Below, piece after piece: positions 1,031 to 35,180 of a stretch of DNA of 35,180 nucleotides. The first letter of the stretch is position 1; every line of letters begins with the position of its first letter. This DNA is from Flavobacteriales bacterium (GTDB lineage: Bacteria; Bacteroidota; Bacteroidia; Flavobacteriales_D; Sanyastnellaceae). A model generated the notes under the pieces. That model searched no databases, was not told where the DNA came from, and worked only from the letters and a program-made list of their open reading frames with translations. The position numbers and the translations under genes are program-made. Location of the stretch: contig JAKVAX010000030.1 of the NCBI GenBank assembly GCA_022447625.1, positions 1 through 35,180 of the forward strand. Reading direction: 5' to 3'.

Positions 1031-1228
1031 GTGACACAAGTCTGCTACTGCAGCGAAAAGATTTTCCTAGAAAGACATTCATACCTATTGATGGACAGGT
1101 ATGGTCGAGACGCGGTGCAAGTCCGCGCTACAACTTCCACTTCGGTGGCGGCTTGTGTCACCACGGCCATACCGCTGTGAACTTGAGATAACGTAATCAA
1201 TTAATCTTCAATAAAATGACACAAGCCG
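1031..1228 (+). ncRNA. Structured 5' leader RNA with two mutually exclusive helices (candidate riboregulator)
   Basis: About 180 nt separate the predicted transcription start from the ATG at 1216. Helix P1 pairs 1031-1042 with 1150-1161 (GTGACACAAG with CTTGTGTCAC plus two more pairs). The same 3' strand, 1149-1160, is perfectly complementary over 12 nt to 1217-1228, which includes the last two bases of the start codon. Both pairings cannot exist together. Inside are hairpins GCGG-TGCAAGT-CCGC (1112-1126), CCAC-TTCG-GTGG (1137-1148) and CATACCT/AGGTATG (1080-1103). The last competes with GGTATGGTC (1098-1106) pairing to GGCCATACC (1165-1173), a potential pseudoknot. GGTGCAAGTCC resembles both a tRNA T-arm and a short motif of cobalamin riboswitches, but the rest does not fit either. 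Family unknown. Confidence 0.62.
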
Positions 1229-1857: not shown

Positions 1858-1871
1858 TTAACTTTAGTTCA

Positions 1872-2396
1872 ATGAAAGAAGAAACAAAGAAATATTTCAT
1901 TCCAATTAATCGAGACACTGTTAAACCCAACGAGAATGCTGGGCAAGACTCATCTAAAGAGCTTGTGGGTGTCAGGCACTGGTTTTACATCAGTGGTGAA
2001 GTTCCAACTACTTTAGAGCTAAGCACGGATTATCATATAGTTGATATGAATTGGGATAGCGACGGCAACGTTGAAGGGATTATAGAGGCATTCGATCAAT
2101 ACGTTAAAGTCAGAGAGGTACTTACATCAGCCGAGGTATTGGACAAACACGAATTAAGAGCTGAGTATATTGAATACGGACACAGACCTGTGCCGGATTT
2201 CTCTTTTGAGTATGAGGACGTAGAAGTTCAATGCGGGTACTGCAGCAGTAAATTCTCTCATACAATGCTAAAGGAACAAGAAGAATACGATAATGAGCAC
2301 GATCTATACCTTTATTCAACCGAGATTTGCCCCGTGTGTAATCGTGGGGGTTGCTGCGAGGTAGAATACGAAAGTGCTGGGTCTACCGATTTGTAG
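1872..2396 (+). CDS. Hypothetical zinc-ribbon protein
   Basis: The protein has 174 residues from the ATG at 1872; the longer open frame from 1728 would run back through the terminator hairpin and overlap the previous gene, so it is not used. The C-terminal third has a CGYC pair and a CPVC pair about 45 residues apart, a treble-clef or zinc-ribbon-like Cys4 arrangement, followed by GGCCEVE. The N-terminal part (HWFYISGEVPTTLELSTDYH) is not recognised. The stop codon abuts the stop of the convergent gene at 2397 with no gap. A nucleic-acid or protein binding role is possible but not shown. Confidence 0.7.
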   Translation: MKEETKKYFIPINRDTVKPNENAGQDSSKELVGVRHWFYISGEVPTTLELSTDYHIVDMNWDSDGNVEGIIEAFDQYVKVREVLTSAEVLDKHELRAEYIEYGHRPVPDFSFEYEDVEVQCGYCSSKFSHTMLKEQEEYDNEHDLYLYSTEICPVCNRGGCCEVEYESAGSTDL

Positions 2397-2909
2397 TTAG
2401 CTAGGGTCGACAGTCGACATGGTGTCACTAGAAGTGATTAGCAAGGAGTCCTCAACAATGGTGTTCTTAAGTATTTGTTGTCCATAGTACTGCATGGATG
2501 AGTCGATTGCGCGAAACCCTTCTTCTTGAATGTTCATCCACTCCCTATCAATTATGCTGTCCTGACGCTGCATATATATTGACACACCACCTATAATTAA
2601 TGAGAATAAAATCGCAGTTAAACTAAGGGTTCTCGAACTCTTTGAGCTTTTTTCCATGGACCCGGTAAGTCCTTGCAGCGTAGCAACAACGGCAGCTTGC
2701 TCCCTTCTGTTGATTTCGTGTATTACAGCTTGCCTTCTGGCGTTCCAAGCCCGGTTATCCACCAGATAAACAAAGTAGAGATTGAAGTCTTCTATAAAAG
2801 ACTTGATTTCGTCATCTGAGAGGTCTTCGGGAAATTTGGTCGTTATCTTTCCAAGCCACCTAGTTTCCATGTATTTTCTCGACTCTCCTGGCTTTGATTC
2901 CAGCTTCAT
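2397..2909 (-). CDS. Single-span membrane protein paired with the SDH-type protease
   Basis: The protein has 170 residues. The N-terminal ~85 residues are charged and helical. Residues around 95-113 (TLSLTAILFSLIIGGVSIYM) form one transmembrane segment, followed by a charged C-terminal tail. An AGAGAGG stretch lies about 6 nt before the ATG, one of the few Shine-Dalgarno-like sites here. It lies 12 nt downstream of the protease gene (2922-3860) in the same direction, so the two form an operon. It could anchor the protease or be its membrane partner; that is inference from context only. The 3' end is convergent and flush with the + strand gene ending at 2396. Confidence 0.7.
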   Translation of the reverse strand: MKLESKPGESRKYMETRWLGKITTKFPEDLSDDEIKSFIEDFNLYFVYLVDNRAWNARRQAVIHEINRREQAAVVATLQGLTGSMEKSSKSSRTLSLTAILFSLIIGGVSIYMQRQDSIIDREWMNIQEEGFRAIDSSMQYYGQQILKNTIVEDSLLITSSDTMSTVDPS

Positions 2910-2921
2910 AAGAACCTCTCT

Positions 2922-3860
2922 TTAATGACCAACTACGAACGCAACACCTAAGTGGTTTTCAACAATTTTATGAGCGCTCGTACCTCCGAAAGTTTCCATA
3001 AAAGCATGATGCACTGAAAGTACGATGTCTTGAAGCGTACCATCGTCTTCAAGAGGAGAGACATTCAATCCCGCTTCTTGGCAATCTCTTTTGGAGAAGT
3101 GTTTGTCATGGGACTTTGAGTGTTGATGGTTATTAAAGACTTCCATGATATTTCTGGTCATTGCATCCGCATCCGCATCCGACATATTGGAGAACATATT
3201 TCGTTTTAACGAATTTTCTGCAATGGCTTTGGACCATTTCACCGCTTGTTCACAAGTGACTAGAAGCGTCGGGTGGTATTGCTGGATAATTGGAATCCAC
3301 ATTTGTGCCACCTCAGGCGAAGCGGTGACCTCTTCCTTAGCTTTCTCAAATTCATCCAAAATTGCTTGAGCAGGAACACCGTTATATTGCGGGTCTATTG
3401 GCCCAAGGCTGCTGTGGGCGCCCATAATTATCTCTTTTGCACTCATGGAAATCATGGTGCCTCCAGACATAGCCAGCTGAGGTACGATTACTCGGATATC
3501 TGTACCAAACATTTCGTACAAATAATCAATAATTGATTCTGTAGCAGCGACATTTCCTCCAGGGGTGTGTAATATCAAATCAAGCCCAAGCGATCGATCC
3601 ATTCGATGAACCGCCGCCATAAATGAGTTTTTATCTTGGTCGTTAATAATTGCATTTGCGTCAGAAGCAGGCTGCTGAAGCCAGCCAGAATAATAGGCTA
3701 TGGTATTGCGACCAGTGTAATCACTTAGTACCCGAATGTACTTTCTTCGAACTTGGTCATAGGGATTTTCTGCTGGCGGCACGCCTGTGGCATTTTCTAT
3801 CTCTCTGTATTTAACCAGTTCTTGGTAGAGCTCGGTTCTTATTTCATTTAGTCCAGGCAT
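2922..3860 (-). CDS. SDH/SppA-like serine protease of the Clp-crotonase fold
   Basis: This 312-residue protein resembles the serine dehydrogenase proteinase family (SDH_sah, Pfam PF01972), relatives of SppA and ClpP. Visible motifs are LDLILHTPGGNVAATESI (residues ~93-110, the substrate/oxyanion loop) and VPQLAMSGGTMISMSAKEI (~126-144), with S132 as candidate nucleophile in MSGGT. Next comes the typical HSSLGPIDPQ (149-158). No signal peptide is seen, and the membrane association of family members could be supplied by the adjacent single-span protein. It is the first gene of a two-gene operon. Such proteases are found on mobile elements; a superinfection-exclusion or lysogen-fitness role is conjecture. 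The fold assignment is fairly secure, the substrate unknown. Confidence 0.82.
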   Translation of the reverse strand: MPGLNEIRTELYQELVKYREIENATGVPPAENPYDQVRRKYIRVLSDYTGRNTIAYYSGWLQQPASDANAIINDQDKNSFMAAVHRMDRSLGLDLILHTPGGNVAATESIIDYLYEMFGTDIRVIVPQLAMSGGTMISMSAKEIIMGAHSSLGPIDPQYNGVPAQAILDEFEKAKEEVTASPEVAQMWIPIIQQYHPTLLVTCEQAVKWSKAIAENSLKRNMFSNMSDADADAMTRNIMEVFNNHQHSKSHDKHFSKRDCQEAGLNVSPLEDDGTLQDIVLSVHHAFMETFGGTSAHKIVENHLGVAFVVGH

Positions 3861-3872
3861 AGAATTGAGATT

Positions 3873-3898
3873 AAAAAAAGGAGGTCATTAGACCTCCT
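3873..3898 (-). terminator. Minus-strand terminator at the end of gene 3888-4115
   Basis: On the minus strand AGGAGGTC, loop TAAT, GACCTCCT, then seven T. The hairpin contains the stop codon of the small gene and separates it from the protease operon. Confidence 0.85.
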
Positions 3899-4115
3899 TG
3901 AGTGTTGTTGATCCAGATATATAAACAGGATCATTAATTCTTTGGAATGAAAGGATTTTGAATGGCTTGTTGAGACTATCAGTACAAGGCTCTACACTGT
4001 CATCTCCAGTAATTAATTTGTAGCCATCATAGTATCCCTTCTTGACTTCTTCAGTCAAAATGGGTTTGCGAGACATAAGACTAGGTGTTACAGAATTAAT
4101 GCAAGTATACGCCAT
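3888..4115 (-). CDS. Small hypothetical protein
   Basis: The protein has 75 residues from the ATG at 4115, or 62 from an internal ATG at 4076 (MSRKPILTEEVKKGYYDGYK). No domain was recognised. The TAA stop lies inside a strong terminator, which supports a real, monocistronic transcript. The gene lies between the integrase and the protease operon and could be transcribed from the integrase side. The sequence holds two cysteines and a basic, tyrosine-rich centre. Coding status is moderate. Confidence 0.55.
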   Translation of the reverse strand: MAYTCINSVTPSLMSRKPILTEEVKKGYYDGYKLITGDDSVEPCTDSLNKPFKILSFQRINDPVYISGSTTLKEV

Positions 4116-4132
4116 ATCCTAACGTAAATTGT

Positions 4133-4166
4133 CACAGTAATGTTTTGGTTTAACAAACGTACTGTG
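4133..4166. repeat. Inverted repeat downstream of the integrase gene
   Basis: CACAGTA (4133-4139) and TACTGTG (4160-4166) with an inner GTTT/AAAC pair. It lies between the integrase stop and the small gene. It could be an operator, an Int/Xis-related site or a weak transcript hairpin. Confidence 0.5.
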
Positions 4167-4191
4167 CAATTAACTAGATATCAATCCCCCT

Positions 4192-5562: not shown

Positions 5563-5606
5563 GGTGTTTCTGAAACACCTTTCAGCGATCCCACAGGGAC
5601 TCGAAT
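5563..5606. other. attP: Candidate attP core
   Basis: Read on the minus strand, 5606-5585 begins ATTCGAGTCCCTGTGGGA, the layout of a tRNA 3' end: T-loop TTCGAGT, T-stem CCCTG, then acceptor strand TGGGATC. Many integrases use tRNA 3' ends, and the matching phage segment is the attP core. Five bases away is a perfect 17-bp dyad GGTGTTTC-T-GAAACACC (5563-5579). Phased repeats flank the region. No 5' tRNA half is present, so this is not a tRNA gene. Confidence 0.5.
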
Positions 5607-9105: not shown

Positions 9106-9814
9106 ACCACCTAAATACAGGTTGAGAGTGTTCTCTTGGTTTGTATTCGGACTGGGGGTGTTCATTTTCGTATTGAACCTCATCGCCTTGAGCGCACAAT
9201 CACAAACCTGTGATAACCCTATTGAATTAGGGACAGAAGGTCCTTACATGGATTGCTTTGAAGCTCCACTGGAGGTTAGTGACCCTTACTCGTCTTCATG
9301 CCCAAGCTGGTACTTCGGTGGAGGCTACTGGCTTCGATTCGAAGCTCTAGGAAACCTACCAGTGTCAATCCAGGTGACCTCATCAATCGACTACACCTTC
9401 TCACCAGAGGAACCTCATATATGGTGTCACATGACCGTTTATAGTTCATGTGAAAGTGATCCTGTCTGGGGTACTACTGCATGCGGACTTGATCTACCTG
9501 CGGTTTTGTCAACGACAGCACCTGGTAGGTCGTACTACGTGGACTTGGATCTACCGGCAGGGACCTACTGGATTATGATTGGGAACGTAGGAGTTAGCCC
9601 TAGCCCTTCAGAAGACATTGAGGGGTGCTTTCAGATATCCGTCTTTAACCAAGGCTTCCTTGACTTAGAAGAGGAGGACATCATTGTTGATGATCCGGTG
9701 ATGATGCAAGCAATGGGTAAAGCAAGGAAGATTTACACGCCGCAAGGGGTGTTCATCGAGACCCCTATTGGCACATTTGATTTAACAGGAAGGAGGGTGG
9801 TCCCTCCGAATTGA
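9089..9814 (+). CDS. Secreted cysteine-rich protein with T9SS-like C-terminal motif
   Basis: The protein has 241 residues; it starts at 9089 or at 9095. After a short basic stretch comes a hydrophobic segment (FSWFVFGLGVFIFVLNLIAL) and a likely cleavage near AQSQT. The mature part opens CDNPIELGTEGPYMDCFEAP, a style common in extracellular proteins of Bacteroidetes, with about eight cysteines and a beta-rich body (RSYYVDLDLPAGTYWIMIGN). The end, TFDLTGRRVVPPN, resembles the (Y/F)DLxGRxV core of type A type IX secretion C-terminal domains, but is cut short after that core. It may be a host-derived surface or secreted protein expressed by the lysogen. Confidence 0.7.
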   Translation: MPMPVEPPKYRLRVFSWFVFGLGVFIFVLNLIALSAQSQTCDNPIELGTEGPYMDCFEAPLEVSDPYSSSCPSWYFGGGYWLRFEALGNLPVSIQVTSSIDYTFSPEEPHIWCHMTVYSSCESDPVWGTTACGLDLPAVLSTTAPGRSYYVDLDLPAGTYWIMIGNVGVSPSPSEDIEGCFQISVFNQGFLDLEEEDIIVDDPVMMQAMGKARKIYTPQGVFIETPIGTFDLTGRRVVPPN

Positions 9815-9819
9815 TAAAT

Positions 9820-9964
9820 GCTGGTGTGGCGGAATGGTAGACGTATGAAACTAGGTTGCGTGCAGGATGTTCTAGGGCAGATGTTCCTGCGTTGCACTAG
9901 TGGATTTAAGAGAACAACCCGATGCCTAGATAGGGTTGTGCAGGTTCGAATCCTGCCACCAGCA
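9820..9964 (+). tRNA. tRNA-Leu-like RNA with an enlarged anticodon arm
   Basis: The ends are those of a class II tRNA. Acceptor GCTGGTG (9820-9826) pairs perfectly with CACCAGC (9957-9963), then A. TG and a Leu-type D-arm GCGGAATGGTAGACGT follow. The T-arm GCAGG-TTCGAAT-CCTGC (9940-9956) is perfect, and a long variable arm ACAACCC/GGGTTGT (9914-9939) is present. Instead of a 17-nt anticodon arm there is a long irregular hairpin of about 50 nt, ACTAG...GCAGGA / TCCTGC...CTAGT (about 9850-9901), with a 17-nt loop containing TTCTAGG. Total length is 145 nt; a normal tRNA-Leu is about 85-90. CCA is not encoded. It may be a non-decoding tRNA mimic, an intron-bearing tRNA, or a decaying tRNA. Confidence 0.6.
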
Positions 9965-10036
9965 CATAACCATTACGGGGATTGAGCAAGACCGCGAGAG
10001 AACAGGGGCTCTGACCGCAGGGAAAGACCTGCACCT

Positions 10037-10096
10037 GGCAGAACGGTTTTGGGTTCACCTCCATACCCAAGGGGAGTTCGATTCTCCCCGCTGCCT
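10037..10096 (+). ncRNA. Second tRNA-like element (T-arm and short acceptor-like stem)
   Basis: A canonical T-arm GGGAG-TTCGATT-CTCCC (10072-10088) is followed by CTGCC (10091-10095), which pairs with GGCAG (10037-10041). Between them is a stem TTGGGT/ACCCAA (10049-10070) with a 10-nt loop. No D-arm is visible, and the acceptor has only five good pairs. Upstream, GCAGG/CCTGC (10017-10032) makes another hairpin. It resembles a D-armless or truncated tRNA and lies 73 nt after the tRNA-Leu-like element and 15 nt before the DUF4494 gene. Confidence 0.42.
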
Positions 10097-10110
10097 CTAA
10101 AACACACACC

Positions 10111-31515: not shown

Positions 31516-32491
31516 GTTTAAGAAGATTGGGGCGGCCCTGATTAATGGGTTCACCGTTGATGAAGCGAATGAAATTGCTGTTCTGCAATTACTGGACTAC
31601 TTCTTCGCGGAGAATCCAGAGCTATCAAGAGGTAAAGGAGTTGCGCTAGTTGGCAACTATGGAGCCGGGAAGACTTCAATTTTCAGAATTATCCAGCAAA
31701 TGATGGAAGTGAGAGAGCGCTTCAGCATGGTCCGCGCCATGGATATCGCAAACGATTACGCTGTTCATGGCGAGTCTATCGTCTCTAAGTACAAGAACGA
31801 CCAAGTGTTGATGGTGGATGATGTTGGGGAAGAAGAAGATAAGCATCGATTTGGAAACAAGGTCAATTCAGTTGCCGAGGTGATGGGGGTGCGTTACGAA
31901 TGCCATCAGGACAGAGGTATTGTGACTCACATGAGTTCTAATCTAAACCTTGATGATTTCGAGAGTCGTTATTCCGGGCGGATTGCGAGTCGCATGCATG
32001 AAATGTTTCATGTCATCCGCTTCACAAGCACGGTTGACCGGCGTAAGAGTAGCGCCCCCGTAGAGAGGCGACCTAAGGCCAATTTTGTAAAGCGAACCAC
32101 AACGGATCTAGACAAAAAGAAGATTGCCGACGCTTTTCTAGAGGACGTGTGGTTCAAGCCCCTGGAGAAATACCAGAAGACAGGGGACATCAAAGTCTTT
32201 CAAGACTACTCTATGCACGAGGTCTTCCGTGAGCTATTCAAAAGAGGAGTGATTCGCCTCACGGAACAACAAACTCAATACTACATCGAGGAGGGTAGGA
32301 GTATCTATCTGCTTGAACCAGGTAATCGCCACGCATGCAGATTCCCTTCGCTAGCTCGAAAGGGGAGTTCTCACAACTTTTACCGCTCCGTTGCAGAAAG
32401 AAATTCATCCAGTGAAGGAAGAGCGAAATACAACGCTGGTCTTCTCTTCATGTGGGACTACATACACTCAATGAAAAACGCGAACCCATGA
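31496..32491 (+). CDS. DnaC-like helicase loader (AAA+ ATPase)
   Basis: The protein has 331 residues. Walker A GNYGAGKT (53-60), Walker B VLMVDDVG (104-111) and an Arg-containing segment FESRYSGRIASRMHEMF, with the sensor-1-like THMSSNLNLDDF, identify a DnaC/IstB-type AAA+ loader. It would load the host DnaB helicase at the iteron origin, working with the initiator just upstream. The C-terminal ~130 residues extend beyond the core and are not recognised. The last codons overlap the methyltransferase ATG by 4 nt. Confidence 0.87.
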   Translation: METRLAEFKKIGAALINGFTVDEANEIAVLQLLDYFFAENPELSRGKGVALVGNYGAGKTSIFRIIQQMMEVRERFSMVRAMDIANDYAVHGESIVSKYKNDQVLMVDDVGEEEDKHRFGNKVNSVAEVMGVRYECHQDRGIVTHMSSNLNLDDFESRYSGRIASRMHEMFHVIRFTSTVDRRKSSAPVERRPKANFVKRTTTDLDKKKIADAFLEDVWFKPLEKYQKTGDIKVFQDYSMHEVFRELFKRGVIRLTEQQTQYYIEEGRSIYLLEPGNRHACRFPSLARKGSSHNFYRSVAERNSSSEGRAKYNAGLLFMWDYIHSMKNANP

Positions 32492-33117
32492 GTATTCCGT
32501 TGGTGAACATGATTAAAGGCGATTGCATGGATTTTATGCGATCAAAACCAAATAGACATTATGATTTGGCAATTGTTGATCCTCCTTATGGAATAAATAT
32601 CAACGTGAATATGGGAAGGAGGAAGGGTGATAAACCAAGTGGTTACAAAAAGTTCGCCGGAGAGGACAAGTCTATTCCATCCGCTGAATACTTCCGTGAG
32701 CTAATGAGGATCTCGAAGAATCAGATCGTTTGGGGAGGAAACTACATGACGGAACACCTTTTCCCTTCCCCTTGTTGGCTTGTATGGGATAAAGGGTTCA
32801 GTGAAGAAATGTCGTTCGCACAAGTGGAAATGGCTTGGACATCCTTCAAATCTTCCGCGAAGAAGTTTGACCGTAATCCGAATCAGCCAGGCCGTATACA
32901 CCCCACCCAGAAACCAGTTCAACTCTACAAGTGGATCTTAATGAACTATGCCAATAAAGGCGATAAGATACTAGACACCCATGGGGGATCGGGATCAATT
33001 GCCTTGGCTTGTCATGAATTAGGGTTTGACCTTGATTGGATTGAGCTCGATAAGGAATACTACGAATCGGCAATGAAGCGATTCAAAGAATATACATCAC
33101 AAACCAGAATGTTTTAA
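32488..33117 (+). CDS. DNA adenine/cytosine-N4 methyltransferase
   Basis: The protein has 209 residues from the ATG at 32488, which overlaps the previous stop (ATGA) and begins MSIPLVNMIKGDCMDFMRS. The catalytic motif DPPY is at 31-34 (DLAIVDPPYGI). The SAM-binding FxGxG-like motif is near the C-terminus (ILDTHGGSGSIALACHELG), preceded by PTQKPVQLYKWILMNYA. This order is that of beta-class enzymes. It has no cognate restriction gene, so it is an orphan methylase, probably protecting phage DNA or marking regulatory sites. Confidence 0.92.
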   Translation: MSIPLVNMIKGDCMDFMRSKPNRHYDLAIVDPPYGININVNMGRRKGDKPSGYKKFAGEDKSIPSAEYFRELMRISKNQIVWGGNYMTEHLFPSPCWLVWDKGFSEEMSFAQVEMAWTSFKSSAKKFDRNPNQPGRIHPTQKPVQLYKWILMNYANKGDKILDTHGGSGSIALACHELGFDLDWIELDKEYYESAMKRFKEYTSQTRMF

Positions 33118-33122
33118 TCGAA

Positions 33123-33503
33123 ATGAAAGAGGAAACGAAAAATAAACCAGTGAAAGCACGGGCAGAGTTTTACGCGAAATGCTATGAAGAGTTAAAGATT
33201 ATCGCGAGAGACTATGGGTGGAATTTAGTTCTTCACGGTAGTATGAGTCGCGATTTGGACCTGATCATGTTCCCTTGGTCAAGCCCGATATGTAATGAGA
33301 AGAAAGTTCTGGATCGGTTCTGTGAATTTCTTGGAGGTAGTTTACAAGAGGAAGTAGGGTCAATGGGGTTCGGAAGGCTTGGATATGTCATAGATCTAGA
33401 AAGAGGAGGTAAGTGGAATAGCTTTAGAGATCAGCAGTTTTATCTGGATATCGCTGTTTTTCCTCTTCCGTCTGGGAGTATCAATTCTTCTGAATTAGTA
33501 TAG
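33123..33503 (+). CDS. Nucleotidyltransferase-like protein
   Basis: The protein has 126 residues. The central segment WNLVLHGSMSRDLDLIMFPW has the GS-x-x-R-D-x-D pattern of minimal nucleotidyltransferases (metal ligands would be the two Asp). The C-terminus contains FYLDIAVFPLP, a possible third acidic residue. Similar small proteins are common in phages. It follows the methyltransferase by 5 nt and precedes a terminator. Target molecule unknown. Confidence 0.72.
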   Translation: MKEETKNKPVKARAEFYAKCYEELKIIARDYGWNLVLHGSMSRDLDLIMFPWSSPICNEKKVLDRFCEFLGGSLQEEVGSMGFGRLGYVIDLERGGKWNSFRDQQFYLDIAVFPLPSGSINSSELV

Positions 33504-33557
33504 AATTAACGTCGCCACCAATTCACTATTTAAATTGTTTGCACTCTGGCGGCAATG

Positions 33558-35020: not shown

Positions 35021-35180
35021 TCAGTCTCTTCCGAGAGCTTCGTTAATCAACCTTTCGGTTTCTTCTGACTCAACCCCTGAAATACCAATCTGGAATTTCG
35101 TTTCATCTGCTGTTGAGGCTGATCCGCTTATTGTTACGGAAATCTCTTGCCCATCAGATTCAACTGCGTCCAATCGTTCG
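35021..35180 (-). CDS. Small acidic hypothetical protein, C-terminal part (gene spans the junction)
   Basis: Continuation of the gene that starts at 193: the frame enters at the right edge and ends with TGA at 35021-35023 (...FQIGISGVESEETERLINEALGRD). Bases 35104-35180 duplicate 1-77. The whole protein is 91 residues once the circle is closed. Confidence 0.7.
   Translation of the reverse strand, partial: ERLDAVESDGQEISVTISGSASTADETKFQIGISGVESEETERLINEALGRD
35104..35180. repeat. Terminal direct repeat, right copy
   Basis: Exact copy of positions 1-77. Confidence 0.93.

Follow-up and report, generated by a model that had tools for sequence, protein, structure and literature searches.

The window, the whole stretch of 35,180 nucleotides analysed here, is one contig of a 3.9-Mb genome. 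Positions 1-77 and 35104-35180 are identical, giving the contig a 77-bp terminal repeat, and in the sister species, G001, the same phage lies in the chromosome at 640703-676309 as a prophage of permuted order. Given these identical ends and the permuted prophage, the contig is most simply read as the circular genome of a temperate phage that is a prophage in the sister species. Comparison with PHROGs assigns phage genes for terminase, portal, major head, neck and tape-measure proteins and integrase. Each end of the G001 prophage has a 21-bp stretch that is also found at 5585-5605 of the window and is likely to be the attachment core. The window and the sister prophage do not align at 9799-10022, at 32479-33512, or at 1860-4188, where G001 has about 1 kb of other sequence. 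The last of these contains an ORF with CxxC pairs and an SDH-type ClpP-like protease (PF01972), among others, and is, judged from the alignment, a swap site adjoining the integrase. A patatin-like phospholipase is encoded in the phage at 7892-8857 (Pfam PF01734, E 3.7e-16).

Upstream of the 1860-4188 region, and separated from it by a terminator, lies ORF1 (1216-1821, + strand), which encodes an acidic protein of 201 aa with 42 D+E against 17 K+R. No family was found for it in PHROGs or Pfam, nor any metabolic family, and its structure model is all-helical, of low confidence (mean pLDDT 51) and too poor to read. The only homologue is in the sister, so that ORF1 is present in two of three genomes of the genus (its own included) and two of 114 of the family; further searches for relatives beyond G001 found none.

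A promoter of the Bacteroidota type lies 5' of ORF1 at 997-1028 on the + strand, with TTG at 999-1001, a 19-nt spacer and TATGTTTG at 1021-1028, the latter an exact match to TANNTTTG. The TTG element and its spacing we take to be those of Bacteroidota promoters. TANNTTTG alone occurs in the window at chance frequency (17 found against 21.5 expected), so the case for this promoter depends on spacing and position. In a flavobacterium the TAnnTTTG (-7) box sits at -12 to -5 and the median leader is 24 nt (PMC9723704). Such a box position predicts a +1 at about 1033, and from there to ORF1 the 5' leader is 183 nt long. Upstream of the promoter box, a hairpin of GGGTTACC/GGTAGCCC followed by TTTT (975-1000, + strand) is a probable terminator, and a second hairpin with a T-run lies upstream of the promoter at 894-917; both were seen by eye and are absent from the terminator scan. 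The scan placed an intrinsic terminator at 1827-1856 on the + strand, so the transcript is probably monocistronic, carrying ORF1 alone, and not the phage accessory operon that the initial annotation described. A 49-codon frame seen by eye from the GTG at 1031 was rejected, since the predicted +1 comes after this GTG and the one change in the sister alters its residue.

An exact TGACACAAG is present three times in the window, at 1032-1040 (+), 1152-1160 (-) and 1217-1225 (+), and eight other matches all have one mismatch. The strand at 1149-1161, identified by repeat search, folds and shuffles and referred to here as the switch strand, has two possible partners: the 5' end of the leader (1031-1042, + strand), which mimics the start region, and the start region itself (1216-1228, + strand), comprising the start codon and codons 2-4. 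In the first pairing, helix A, 1031-1040 and 1152-1161 form 10 Watson-Crick pairs and, beyond a bulged U1041, the constrained fold adds nine between 1042-1050 and 1143-1151, three of them G-U, for a total of 19. In the second, helix B, 1217-1228 and 1149-1160 form 12 pairs. Sharing the switch strand makes the two helices mutually exclusive. The pairing of 1149-1161 with either 1031-1042 or 1217-1228, as first annotated, is therefore present, is exclusive and is equalled in none of 5,000 shuffles, and the duplication of TGACACAAG at both targets is exact. Helix B has the 12 pairs originally given for both helices, while helix A has 10, a bulge and then nine. The promoter, which had been called near-perfect for Bacteroidetes, does appear to be a good one and would place the 5' copy at the end of the transcript. 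The target was said to lie at the very 5' end of the transcript, and the predicted +1 of about 1033 is indeed within the copy; for that reason helix A probably lacks its outermost two pairs in the RNA, leaving nucleotides 1-8 (1033-1040) to pair with 1152-1159.

Could such an arrangement arise by chance? Of the two overlapping helices, the smaller has 12 pairs when the 5' end is set at 1031. Across 5,000 dinucleotide shuffles the best smaller helix had 10 pairs, which was reached once, and none had 11; with the 5' end at 1033 the smaller helix of the leader itself has 10. Among 48 leaders with TANNTTTG, drawn from the window and 880 kb of G001, only this leader and its homologue exceed seven pairs, the best of the other 46 being seven. 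The ORF starts of the window and the same 880 kb were also compared, using a mechanical list of ATG ORFs of at least 80 aa that counts the prophage twice. At three of 1,121 starts an exact 9-mer recurred upstream and its reverse complement lay between the two copies: this leader, its counterpart in the sister prophage, and an array of palindromic repeats. The pairing geometry exceeds chance. The third of these starts (G001 259660) was dismissed as an artefact of the repeat array. This array of palindromic CACGCATGCGTG-centred units is in the host chromosome (L032 19330-19851; about 259330-259851 in G001) and has nine exact cores, with spacings mostly of 45-47 bases. An insertion that duplicated its target site was considered as a source of the TGACACAAG repeat and rejected, as it leaves the inverted middle copy unexplained.

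The three copies of TGACACAAG might instead act as DNA, being an operator bound by a repressor. One copy is at the predicted transcription start, and all three exact copies in 35 kb sit in the leader and start region, as would suit such a site. However, the TGACACAAG site is not palindromic, its third copy is coding, and the complementarity extends beyond the repeat with G-U pairs that are usable by RNA only. Taken together these make an operator quite improbable.

Between the two strands of helix A the leader contains an internal hairpin of CATACCT/AGGTATG (1080-1103), a CGCGG-TGCAAGT-CCGCG hairpin (1111-1127), evident in both folds and sequence, and a CCAC-TTCG-GTGG tetraloop hairpin (1137-1148), all on the + strand. 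The loop of the 1111-1127 hairpin presumably resembles a T-loop. The tetraloop hairpin is formed in the predicted closed state; in the open state it gives way to the extended part of helix A, 1042-1050 with 1143-1151. As a whole the leader folds more stably than shuffles (z -3.76), while the interior is near the shuffle level (z -0.79 for 1051-1142 and -1.67 for 1041-1151), so the stability of the leader comes from the long helices.

Which helix forms is predicted to depend upon how much of the transcript has been made. These predictions are for RNA alone, without ribosomes. At 25 C and with the 5' end at 1033, the probability of helix A (pA) is 1.00 in all 12 prefixes ending from 1156 to 1222. 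In the 10 prefixes from 1228 on, the probability of helix B (pB) is at least 0.92 in eight; the exceptions end at 1234 (pB 0.75, pA 0.25) and at 1250 (pB 0.04, pA 0.96). When the 5' end is taken as 1031 and the 3' end as 1235, helix A is favoured instead (pA 0.96). Since the balance shifts with the end of the transcript and with the assumed 5' end, its sign is within the error of the model. That the two states are close in energy is a firmer prediction than the sign of the balance between them. The predicted probability of an unpaired AUG is 0.91-0.95 in state A versus 0.33 in state B, in which codons 2-4 are closed. The barrier from A to B is predicted at 13.2-19.6 kcal/mol, an upper bound from a path heuristic, and a barrier of 13-20 kcal/mol would suit a kinetic timer or an ON state held by a factor.

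Sequence and prediction provide one of the traits that mark a translational riboswitch as a kind, exclusive helices of which one blocks the translation start; the other would be a conserved aptamer that binds a small ligand. The logic of a translational switch that was first assigned to this leader is borne out to this extent, in its exclusive helices, its buried start codon and the predicted difference in exposure of the AUG, but not in the form of a thermosensor. A start codon buried in a helix could in principle be released by heat; here, with the 5' end at 1033, the energy model gives the closed state B a probability of at least 0.86 across 10-55 C for each of the five lengths tested. This dominance argues against a thermosensor, which we consider the least probable of the explanations.

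A possible pseudoknot between 1098-1106 and 1165-1173 had been put forward, along with internal hairpins, as deciding which helix forms. The strands exist, at 1098-1107 and 1164-1173 (both + strand), with 10 pairs and a duplex energy of -15.6 kcal/mol; freeing them costs 14.4-18.5 kcal/mol, and the 3' strand has an alternative in a local hairpin, ACGG/CCGCTGT. Before any pseudoknot penalty, the energies for a transcript ending at 1240 are -57.9 with the pseudoknot against -59.4 nested for state A, and -60.3 against -63.2 for state B. For an end at 1300, state A has -81.9 with the pseudoknot and -80.7 nested, and state B has -83.0 and -85.9. The pseudoknot is therefore predicted to be about break-even or worse even at this stage, and to be compatible with both states. 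As the decider it fits either outcome; if formed, it would tilt the balance somewhat toward the open state A.

The leader (1029-1215) differs from that of the sister prophage by one change in 187 bases, at 1062, a base in a predicted hairpin loop. This is slower than ORF1, which has 12 changes in 123 synonymous sites (p = 9e-5), but against the neighbouring intergenic sequence at 833-1019, with four changes in 187, the difference is not significant (p 0.37). Windows of 187 bases with no more than one change form 19 clusters in the phage genome, the leader's own included, and six other intergenic stretches are as slow (1/165, 1/168, 1/96, 0/86, 0/59 and 0/55). In comparison with the sister prophage the phages are mosaic. 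In view of the equally slow windows and the test against the adjoining intergenic sequence, the conservation of the leader is suggestive only, and selection on it is plausible. Covariation is absent, the only relative found being the sister prophage with its one different base. The lack of covariation, the orphan gene and the mosaic conservation are what would be expected if the repeat were a chance occurrence or a relic with no regulatory role. Against this are the shuffle and genome controls and the placement of the copies exactly at the +1 and at the AUG, and we regard this explanation as unlikely.

Is the leader a member of a wider family? Its DNA was found in 114 genomes of the family only in its own genome and the sister. 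A covariance model, R1, was built from the two near-identical sequences and so would miss distant relatives. In 100 relatives, and again in 299 genomes of the order, it matched the leader, the sister and one other genome, G026; in 395 genomes of the class it matched the leader and the sister, and in 395 of the phylum, under a stricter E limit, the leader alone. These draws of genomes overlap. The G026 match was discarded as chance (20.2 bits, 73% GC, four of 10 closing pairs broken). Searches of phage DNA for the leader gave nothing or two chance pieces, and a search of plasmid DNA gave 49 records, with pieces of 31-33 bases among the 20 listed. Pattern searches found 7, 5, 5, 0 and 0 stretches in viral_contigs and none in genome_contigs. 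On the 17 viral loci R1 had one match, to a hairpin only, and none of the first seven contained a tRNA according to ARAGORN. R1 also had one match, at E 6.3, on ten relatives of the terminase. Relatives of the helicase loader are present in 40 of 299 genomes, counting the phage's own genome and the sister; apart from these two, the matches have 29-45% identity and are too distant to help, and no helicase-loader relatives were found in viral_contigs. Rfam gave no match at gathering score for 1031-1228, and for 900-1300 three chance-like matches at E 2-4, with no purine aptamer recognised. The initial statement that no riboswitch class matches the leader agrees with this lack of an Rfam family. 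Resemblances to HDV-like, group I, cobalamin and T-box RNAs were likewise dropped for want of an Rfam match.

A metabolite riboswitch of a new class would place an aptamer at 1043-1142, closed by the 5' helix, with the ligand stabilising that helix and freeing the start codon as a translational ON switch. In some riboswitches the closing helix and the expression platform share a strand, and the layout here is similar. The interior is nearly unchanged in the sister and includes the T-loop-like hairpin at 1111-1127. Against these points, the interior is no stabler than shuffles, ORF1 has no metabolic family, Rfam offers only the chance-like matches, and no second copy was found among the family, relatives, order, class and phylum genomes searched; such a riboswitch is an unlikely reading. 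Alternatively, ORF1 or another protein might bind one state of the leader, in autoregulation or as a regulator. A single-gene unit with its own leader would suit this, as would the start of ORF1 at 1216-1274, which has no changes versus the sister. Yet the protein is acidic, without family and with a model too poor to judge by, and binding of this kind is about as improbable as a ligand. Both are special cases of a bistable leader, so that the likelihoods given for these readings overlap.

Control by an antisense RNA, in the style of a type I toxin-antitoxin system, would need a transcript running leftward from about 1302. The minus strand has TANNTTTG at 1314-1307 and a terminator-like hairpin at 1103-1080. 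By eye, the TTG of the -33 element is absent at the usual spacing, TANNTTTG is at chance frequency, and ORF1 is an acidic protein of 201 aa and not a small hydrophobic toxin. Antisense control is accordingly very improbable.

The explanation that we prefer, while judging it only an even call, is that a bistable cis-acting leader controls the translation of this single prophage gene, as sequence and predicted folds suggest. The 5' end of the mRNA would act as a copy of the start-codon region through TGACACAAG. During transcription this copy would meet the switch strand first, forming the long helix and leaving the start codon open (ON). The start-codon region, once made, would compete for the switch strand, and predictions for longer mRNA mostly give the greater stability to the AUG-burying helix (OFF). 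With the ON helix first and the OFF helix later, newly made transcripts would be translatable for a limited time, or the leader would await a factor (ligand, protein or helicase) by which the first helix is held or released. The sequences, their repetition and the promoter and terminator motifs are observed, and the energies, folding order and barrier are predictions. In such a leader translation would follow the fold, and we infer that the switching has been selected. A real and non-random translational switch on an orphan gene is plausible from the sequence and the modelling.

Leaders of this overall kind are already known, and the new part would be the decoy of the start region at the 5' terminus. 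The MS2 maturation-protein leader has a transient structure that permits translation until the equilibrium fold shuts off the start region (PMC6733600). The present leader would do likewise, but belongs to a DNA phage of Bacteroidota and has as its early fold a long helix made by the 5' copy of the start region. The early fold of MS2 is a small hairpin. Its delayed RNA folding is attributed to van Meerten et al. (2001). In a timer the early open fold is less stable than the final one; here A is predicted to form first and B to be final in eight of 10 longer ends, with a sign that varies with the 5' end and length. The type I toxin mRNAs hok and H. pylori aapA3 have metastable folds in which access to the translation start is governed by pairings that replace one another as transcription proceeds (PMC6733600). 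This is similar to the order of pairing proposed here, though the metastable hairpins of aapA3 keep translation off, whereas the early fold here is predicted to be ON, and this locus offers neither a small toxin nor a convincing antisense RNA. The add adenine riboswitch of Vibrio vulnificus also has alternative folds of the leader at the translation start, its ON state releasing that start (PMC8342710). It differs in what is paired, here the start codon and codons 2-4 and not a Shine-Dalgarno sequence, and in its purine aptamer, none being recognised here. A literature search with partial full-text coverage for start-codon-sequestering riboswitch leaders in phages or prophages of Bacteroidetes turned up a single review, on an unrelated subject.

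Flavobacteria are without Shine-Dalgarno sequences (PMC9723704), so a leader that switches translation has to do so at the start codon region itself. We raise, as a rather doubtful proposal, a class of leader in which the mRNA begins with a selected copy of its start region, a decoy keeping fresh transcripts translatable until refolding or a factor intervenes and giving a self-timed prophage gene that has no Shine-Dalgarno sequence. The case is built on one sequence and a near-identical sister. A 5'-terminal decoy of the start codon would be a simple and testable route to switching and, if true, would reveal how an accessory gene is kept in check by a prophage.

Two other structured elements were seen in the phage. 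The first, at 9820-9964, is 145 nt long, resembles a tRNA (Rfam tRNA, 38 bits) and is missed by ARAGORN. Besides acceptor, D and T arms, its fold has a long variable arm and an anticodon-arm hairpin extended to about 50 nt; the sister prophage has different sequence at this position. Right after it, at 10037-10098, is a second tRNA-like fold with a 5-bp acceptor-like stem, an anticodon-like stem and a T arm (GGGGAGTTCGATTCTCCCC), in which the D arm is absent and for which Rfam has only a sub-threshold tmRNA match. Its counterpart in G001 (645089 on) keeps the T arm and stem and has a middle loop changed in both length and sequence.
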